This document shows positions 63,150 to 64,000 of a stretch of 64,000 nt of DNA, piece by piece; the stretch's first letter is position 1, and each line of letters opens with the position of its first letter. This stretch comes from Elioraea tepidiphila DSM 17972 (lineage in GTDB: Bacteria > Pseudomonadota > Alphaproteobacteria > Acetobacterales > Acetobacteraceae). The notes beneath the pieces were generated by a model. It was not told the origin of the DNA, did no database searches, and saw nothing but the letters and a program-made list of their open reading frames with translations. The translations under genes were made by a program, and so were the position numbers. The stretch lies in the NCBI RefSeq assembly GCF_000378465.1, contig NZ_KB899925.1:1-64000 (forward strand). The letters are read 5' to 3'.

Positions 63150-63470
63150 ATGAAGAAGGGCATCCACCCGAACTACCACGAGATCACCGTCGTCATGACC
63201 GACGGGTCCTCGTTCACGACCCGGTCCTGCTACGGCAAGCCCGGCGACACGCTGCGGCTCGACATCGACCCGAAGTCGCACCCGGCCTGGACCGGCCAGC
63301 AGCGCGTGGTGCTCGACAGCGCGGGTCAGGTCTCGAAGTTCAACAAGCGCTTCGCGGTCGATCTGTCGAAGATGAACATCAAGGCCGCGGCGAGCATCAA
63401 CAAGGGCGCGAAGGCGGCCCCCGCGCCGGCCGCCGGCGCTGGCAAGCCGGCCCCCGCGAAGAAGAAGTAG
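63150..63470 (+). CDS. rpmE: 50S ribosomal protein L31 (extended form)
   Basis: Protein of 106 residues. [20 protein letters not shown] starts it, and [22 protein letters not shown] (in parts) with FNKRF follows. The usual L31 is about 70-75 residues. Here about 30 additional residues rich in Ala, Pro and Lys form a tail (GKPAPAKKK end). It lacks the CxxC zinc pair, as in the C-minus alphaproteobacterial type; a single Cys remains. Confidence 0.92.
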
Positions 63471-63479
63471 CGCCCGGCA

Positions 63480-63494
63480 CCCCCTTGAAGGGGG
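63480..63494 (+). terminator. GC palindrome after rpmE
   Basis: CCCCCTTGAAGGGGG is a perfect odd palindrome (7-base arms, one central base). It is followed directly by six C, so G6C6 at 63490-63501 can pair as well. There is no T-run. It lies 10 bases after the rpmE stop and could serve to end that transcript. Confidence 0.4.
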
Positions 63495-63520
63495 GCCCCC
63501 CGCCTCCTACGTCGTCGATG

Positions 63521-63617
63521 CCGGGATGCCTCCGGGGTCCCGGCACGATCGGTCAGGCTTCGGCTGACCATGAGGGTGCCGTGCCCGACCGACCGGACCT
63601 TGCTTCCATGAAGGAGG
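63521..63617 (+). promoter_or_regulatory. ROSE-like RNA thermometer in the hsp20 leader
   Basis: Three stem-loops precede the gene. CCGGGA/TCCCGG occupies 63521-63543 and GGTCAG/CTGACC 63551-63569. The last hairpin, 63598-63617, holds TTGCT opposite the ribosome site AGGAGG. In the last one CTTC (63603-63606) pairs with GAAG (63610-63613), and G63602 is unpaired next to CCTT:GAGG. The UUGCU-against-Shine-Dalgarno layout is the hallmark of ROSE elements, which melt on heat shock. Not proven here. Confidence 0.65.
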
Positions 63618-63624
63618 ACCGACG

Positions 63625-64000
63625 ATGAACGCCTTCGACTTCTCTCCGCTGTTCCGCTCGACCATCGGCTTCGACCGGCTGTCGCGCCTGATGGACACGG
63701 CCCTGAACGCGGCCGATGCGAGCTATCCGCCGTACAACATCGAGAAGCTCGGCGAGGACCAGTACCGTCTGACCATGGCGGTGGCCGGGTTCGGCGAGTC
63801 CGATCTGGAGATCAGCCAGAAGGACAACGCCCTGGTCGTGACCGGCAAGGCGGCCAAGGAGGCCGAGCCGCGCCAGTTCCTGCATCGCGGCATCGCCCGG
63901 CGCGCGTTCGAGCGCCGCTTCGAGCTGGCCGACCACATGGTGGTGGACGGCGCGAGCCTGGAGAACGGGCTGCTCCACATCGCGCTGCGCCGCGTGGTGC
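63625..64000 (+). CDS. Hsp20 family small heat-shock protein (3' cut by window)
   Basis: The first 125 residues are present. MNAFDFSPLFRSTIGFDRLS and YPPYNIEKLGEDQYRLTMAVAGF form the start of the alpha-crystallin domain, followed by LVVTGKAAKE and FLHRGIARRAFERRFELADHM. It resembles IbpA-class holdases that bind unfolding proteins at high temperature. ATG 63625 follows AAGGAGG. The C-terminal IxI/V motif lies beyond the window. Confidence 0.93.
   Translation, partial: MNAFDFSPLFRSTIGFDRLSRLMDTALNAADASYPPYNIEKLGEDQYRLTMAVAGFGESDLEISQKDNALVVTGKAAKEAEPRQFLHRGIARRAFERRFELADHMVVDGASLENGLLHIALRRVV

Follow-up and report, generated by a model that had tools for sequence, protein, structure and literature searches.

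The leader of the hsp20 mRNA in Elioraea is in all likelihood an RNA thermometer of the ROSE type, with a response to heat that we infer from the family to which it would belong. The gene lies at the end of a 64,000-nucleotide stretch of DNA (the window) inside the 4,304,237-base genome of Elioraea tepidiphila, a species with a growth optimum of 45–50°C (PMC8781829). We base the assignment on the anatomy of the leader, its position and its conservation; ROSE elements are already expected in this group of bacteria, and the assignment is very probably correct. It adds a well-supported candidate ROSE thermometer from a moderate thermophile, a hot-spring bacterium.

The mechanism that we propose is as follows. 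On heat shock a promoter of the sigma-32 type would give rise to an mRNA beginning at the first of three hairpins. Hairpins I and II would act as rigid elements that aid the folding and stability of the leader. At low temperature the SD sequence would be masked within hairpin III by an imperfect UUGCU/AGGA helix containing a bulged G. Heating would open hairpin III, whereupon the ribosome could bind and Hsp20 be made.

The hsp20 Leader Is Predicted to Fold into Three Hairpins

The reading frame of hsp20 is cut by the end of the window and is complete in the genome contig; the gene is 98% identical to hsp20 of Elioraea sp. Yellowstone. It starts with the ATG at 63625, 7 nt after the SD sequence AGGAGG (63612–63617). 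Upstream of this ATG the frame stays open as far as 63574, and no alternative ATG, GTG or TTG is present in that extension.

The MFE fold calculated for positions 63519–63634 has an energy of −56.4 kcal/mol (z = −2.95), with 1 of 200 shuffled sequences folding equally well. It contains exactly three hairpins, which span 63519–63621 (Table 1). Hairpin III has the layout CGG-A-CCUU-(G)-CUUC-CAU-GAAG-GAGG-A-CCG, in which a CGG/CCG clamp lies below an A-A mismatch. UUGCU (63600–63604) faces AGGA (63612–63615) in both the MFE fold and the Elioraea consensus, by way of the pairs U63600-A63615, U63601-G63614, C63603-G63613 and U63604-A63612, leaving G63602 bulged. An earlier note on this DNA had described a last hairpin that sets UUGCU against AGGAGG with an unpaired G, and two further stem-loops in front of it; all of this is recovered in the MFE fold, where the two additional stem-loops are hairpins I and II. 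Within hairpin II there is a competing local hairpin, GGUCAG/CUGACC.

Table 1. Location of the hsp20 gene, its putative promoter and the predicted hairpins of the leader
Feature	Position in window	Strand	Evidence
RpoH (sigma-32)-like promoter, TTGAAG-N15-CCTACG	63485–63511	+	Motif conservation; predicted start ~63516–63519
Hairpin I, GC-rich, UGCCGGGAUGCCUCCGGGGUCCCGGCA	63519–63545	+	−20.4 kcal/mol, z = −3.7; covariation
Hairpin II, closing stem UCGGUC/GACCGA	63549–63592	+	z = −3.35; covariation
Hairpin III, thermosensor candidate, anti-SD UUGCU vs SD AGGAGG	63594–63621	+	Fold, conservation
hsp20 (alpha-crystallin small heat-shock protein), putative regulated gene	63625–64000, continues past window end	+	PF00011, E = 1.4e-15

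ROSE elements are defined by the pairing of U(U/C)GCU with the SD sequence in the last hairpin (PMC3669281), and more than 40 ROSE candidates from alpha- and gammaproteobacteria have been published according to work that the same source cites. The element in the window has the location expected of a ROSE, in the 5′ UTR before a small heat-shock gene and ending at the start codon. With three stem-loops, of which I and II are stable, it also falls within the range of two to four stem-loops with stable 5′ members that is typical of the family.

A Putative Heat-Shock Promoter Lies Immediately Upstream of Hairpin I

Sigma-32 sites resemble TTGAAA...CCCCATNT. Read from its motif, TTGAAG-N15-CCTACG is heat-shock-sigma-like, and would constitute a promoter of the RpoH type. 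We collected 110 alphaproteobacterial relatives of hsp20 together with their leaders, 106 of which are distinct. TTGAA followed after 15–17 nt by a block resembling CYTA or CCAT is present in 68 of these 106 leaders, compared with a mean of 0.5 (and a maximum of 3 in 200 rounds) after shuffling, and the spacing is identical in all seven Elioraea. From the motif we infer that the hsp20 mRNA starts at ~63517, just ahead of hairpin I; all three hairpins would therefore be inside the mRNA. The Pseudomonas ibpA thermometer genes are likewise sigma-32-dependent (PMC3669281).

The gene upstream of hsp20 is that of ribosomal protein L31 (rpmE), which ends at 63470. At 63480–63495, right behind the rpmE stop, the −35 box TTGAA forms the loop of a CCCCC-UUGAA-GGGGG palindrome, and this palindrome may also serve to end the rpmE transcript.

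With the L31 gene ending so close by, the stem-loops might be regarded as part of some other RNA (an L31 leader, an rpmE terminator or a trans-acting sRNA) that resembles ROSE by chance. There is an overlapping weak match to the L31-Corynebacteriaceae leader (17.3 bits, against a cut-off of 36), and CCCCCUUGAAGGGGGG behind the L31 gene could serve as a terminator. However, an L31 leader is expected 5′ of rpmE and not 3′ of it, none of the three hairpins is followed by a U-run, and in genomes throughout the class the conserved elements keep their place relative to the hsp20 start codon. We therefore consider this origin to be extremely unlikely.

The Anti-SD Sequence Is Conserved before hsp20 Genes

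Comparison with relatives gives strong evidence for the ROSE reading. UYGCU occurs near the start codon in 105 of the 106 hsp20 leaders, the single exception (L029) having UUGCC. In 85 of the 106 an AGGA stands behind it at the proper spacing, an arrangement found in none of 491 control ORFs, which comprise the remaining ORFs of 150 codons or more in the same loci. It is also absent from all 49 of the control ORFs that have AGGA before the start. Most of the 21 hsp20 leaders in which the combination is missing retain UYGCU together with a variant of the SD sequence. Hairpin III differs among the seven Elioraea leaders only at its tip and in one outer pair; its bulged G and U-G pair are unchanged in all seven, and a bulged G opposite the SD is maintained in Elioraea and in other Acetobacteraceae.

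The bare string TTGCT-N3..12-AGGAGG occurs 5 times in the genome, compared with 11 times for the reversed pattern. We have rejected this motif as evidence in its own right, as it is not enriched in a GC-rich genome. What exceeds chance is the position of the motif before hsp20 and its conservation there, rather than the string as such.

These comparisons bear on another explanation, that this is an ordinary GC-rich 5′ UTR which stabilizes the mRNA or sets a fixed low level of translation, heat control being purely transcriptional by means of the sigma-32-like promoter. GC-rich sequence folds easily, a promoter-like motif is indeed present, and hairpin III is predicted to be stable to ~70°C. 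Nevertheless, such a leader offers no account of why UYGCU should stand before the SD in all but one of the relatives and be absent from control ORFs, nor of why Elioraea and other Acetobacteraceae should maintain the bulged G across from the SD, and we judge it to be very unlikely.

Hairpins I and II Carry Compensatory Changes

In an alignment of the seven Elioraea leaders 92.6% of cells pair, and eight pairs have changed on both sides, three of them in hairpin I and five in hairpin II. Neither the number of double changes nor the covariation score was reached in any of 500 shuffles, and pairing falls to 33–54% when the partners are slid relative to one another. The same holds outside the genus. 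In 21 compact leaders from Acetobacteraceae other than Elioraea, and from relatives, 95% of the alignment cells pair. Double changes are found at 12 pairs (0 of 500 shuffles), and in hairpin I they affect 7 of the 11 pairs of these 21 leaders. Hairpins I and II thus exhibit the compensatory change among relatives that is looked for in a ROSE element. Hairpin III, within which the SD sequence and the fixed UYGCU lie, can covary little; it is nearly invariant, yields no covariation and is uninformative in this respect. The compensatory changes found in the first two hairpins and the presence of UYGCU in 105 of 106 relatives lend independent support to the earlier note, which had read the leader as a ROSE thermometer.

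The local hairpin GGUCAG/CUGACC was considered as a conserved alternative within hairpin II, and was discarded when its covariation proved to be no better than that of shuffled alignments. Part of the hairpin II stem, as aligned, is disrupted in E. rosea, although CGGUCGG/CCGACCG in its own sequence could provide a shifted equivalent.

A covariance model (R1) was constructed from the 21 compact Acetobacteraceae leaders, with no Elioraea sequence included. Its sole match in the 64 kb of the window is at 63513–63610, with a score of 21.2 bits and E = 0.0035 (E = 0.23 genome-wide). It is hairpin I and the local form of hairpin II that carry this match. At the 3′ end the model was aligned to CAUG at 63607–63610, off the true start, and hairpin III was not registered on the true SD, because hairpin II is longer in the window leader. 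The match therefore counts for hairpin I and its context, and not for hairpin III.

The Leader Aligns with the Rfam ROSE Family below Its Gathering Score

The comparison with Rfam, by which the earlier note had proposed that its reading be checked, gave a divided result. A search of the window at the gathering score returned no ROSE match. In a search of 701 bases RF00435 ROSE aligned over its full length (1–94) at 63522–63629, but with a score of 20.5 bits where the gathering score is 45. This match has E = 1.3 across 4227 families, equivalent by division to ~3e-4 for a single family and 701 bases. When RF00435 was searched against the whole genome the leader was not reported at E ≤ 10, probably having been lost among the filtered candidates.

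The gathering score is a threshold chosen by the curators and not a biological feature. To gauge a score of this size, we ran RF00435 against 289 alphaproteobacterial genomes, of which 95 gave a match at E ≤ 10 and only one exceeded the cut-off. Among the best 20 matches (30–46 bits; L151–L170), nearly all of which are below the cut-off, 18 lie directly 5′ of hsp20. Lower matches also adjoin hsp20 genes that had been found independently, with scores of 29.5 (G036), 28.4 (G038), 27.2 (G047), 23.3 (G049), 21.5 (G046) and 17.6 bits (G051). Since matches down to 17.6 bits adjoin hsp20 genes, a score of ~20 bits is within the class-wide range for hsp20 leaders. With one genome in 289 reaching the cut-off, and sub-threshold matches falling on hsp20 leaders, the shortfall of the 20.5-bit match is thus no refutation of ROSE. 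Nearly all hsp20 leaders of the Alphaproteobacteria fall short of the ROSE cut-off in Rfam, and either the model or its cut-off seems too narrow for the class.

RF00435, comprising ROSE1 of Bradyrhizobium japonicum hspA and its alphaproteobacterial relatives, resembles the window element in being a 5′ leader with several hairpins that precedes an alpha-crystallin hsp gene, and in the 3′-most hairpin of both UUGCU, with a bulged G, faces the SD. Hairpin I of the window aligns pair for pair with the model. However, hairpin II is longer, with 23 positions where the model skips 5, and five positions of the model are missing from the 5′ side of hairpin III; with its CGG/CCG clamp and 4-bp upper stem hairpin III is also stabler than most. 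In many leaders of the Roseomonas type (e.g., L036, L058 and L109) the stretch from hairpin I to III is longer than in the compact type, and an enlarged hairpin II is therefore not specific to Elioraea. Within the Acetobacteraceae, the hsp20 gene GOX_RS07835 of Gluconobacter oxydans 621H is annotated with RF00435 (PMC5756330). This ROSE shares bacterial family, regulated gene and Rfam family with the window element; its annotation comes from Rfam, and the study found no start site (PMC5756330).

Hairpin III Is Unusually Stable in Elioraea

The stability of hairpin III was compared with the ROSE register forced in 85 homologues, seven from Elioraea and 78 others. The Elioraea hairpins have ΔG37 between −9.2 and −13.6 kcal/mol (−10.8 for the window), compared with a median of −6.55 kcal/mol for the other 78, and take ranks 1, 2, 3, 5, 6, 8 and 12 of the 85. 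Growth optima in the genus are 28, 45–50 and 55°C, the lowest being that of E. rosea (PMC8781829). The hairpin III of this mesophile is the weakest in the genus, its upper stem comprising 3 bp (CUG/CAG) where the thermophiles have 4 bp (CUUC/GAAG).

The pattern is consistent with tuning to temperature and with a predicted higher set point, with the proviso that the comparison involves seven related sequences and that GC content is a confounder. We tentatively suggest that the Elioraea element could be a ROSE that has been re-tuned for a thermophile, its upper stem strengthened, its hairpin II enlarged and a G-C clamp added, such that it would open near 50–55°C instead of ~40°C. Elioraea with optima of 28, 45–50 and 55°C have the same core, making the evolution of switching temperature testable within one genus.

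The stability ranking would also suit an element that is a ROSE by descent, and in which the switch has been lost in a moderate thermophile with a hairpin III that is too stable. Yet the bulged G and the U-G pair, which are expected to destabilize the helix, are the very features that do not vary in the seven Elioraea, and a set point above 45–50°C would itself need higher stability. Loss of the switch is in our opinion very improbable.

Nearest-neighbor calculation predicts that the naked hairpin III RNA melts only above ~70°C, with Tm values of ~74°C and a median of 66°C for the homologues; these values are not the working temperature. Given that the homologues have similarly high calculated melting temperatures, such melting is no demonstration of thermosensing. 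The accessibility of the SD calculated from the partition function rose smoothly with temperature, with no sharp transition and little difference among the Elioraea species, and these curves were therefore set aside as evidence of a switch.

A Second hsp20 Gene Has a Shorter ROSE-like Leader

There are two further hsp20 paralogues. The region upstream of the third (C2:243809) has no ROSE-like leader of the kind described here for the second, which is located at 96792–97136 of contig C12 in the same genome (G000, minus strand; L117, reverse strand). The leader of this second gene, GCCGGGGUGCCUUCGGGGUCCCGGC-CGGACGCUCGCUCGAAACGAGGAGACCACC-AUG, appears to be a short, ROSE-like one of two hairpins, with hairpin I followed by a hairpin that sets UCGCU opposite AGGA. 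UYGCU is present in 16 of the 18 family leaders of this type of paralogue (L119–L136). Two related paralogue leaders match RF02523 ROSE_3 with 35.0 and 29.7 bits (E = 2.8e-4 and 0.006), where the cut-off is 43. The fold of the second leader is no more stable than those of shuffled sequences (z = −0.1), and the case for its being ROSE-like therefore rests on conservation.

The short ROSE-like element of Pseudomonas ibpA (PMC3669281; compare RF02523 ROSE_3) has in common with the window element the pairing of U(U/C)GCU with the SD and, as is predicted for the window, a sigma-32-dependent promoter upstream, but it possesses two hairpins only, and is closer to the leader of the second hsp20 paralogue. 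If the window element is indeed a re-tuned ROSE, a single genome would contain ROSE elements of two designs that differ in set point, that of the window and the short version before the paralogue.
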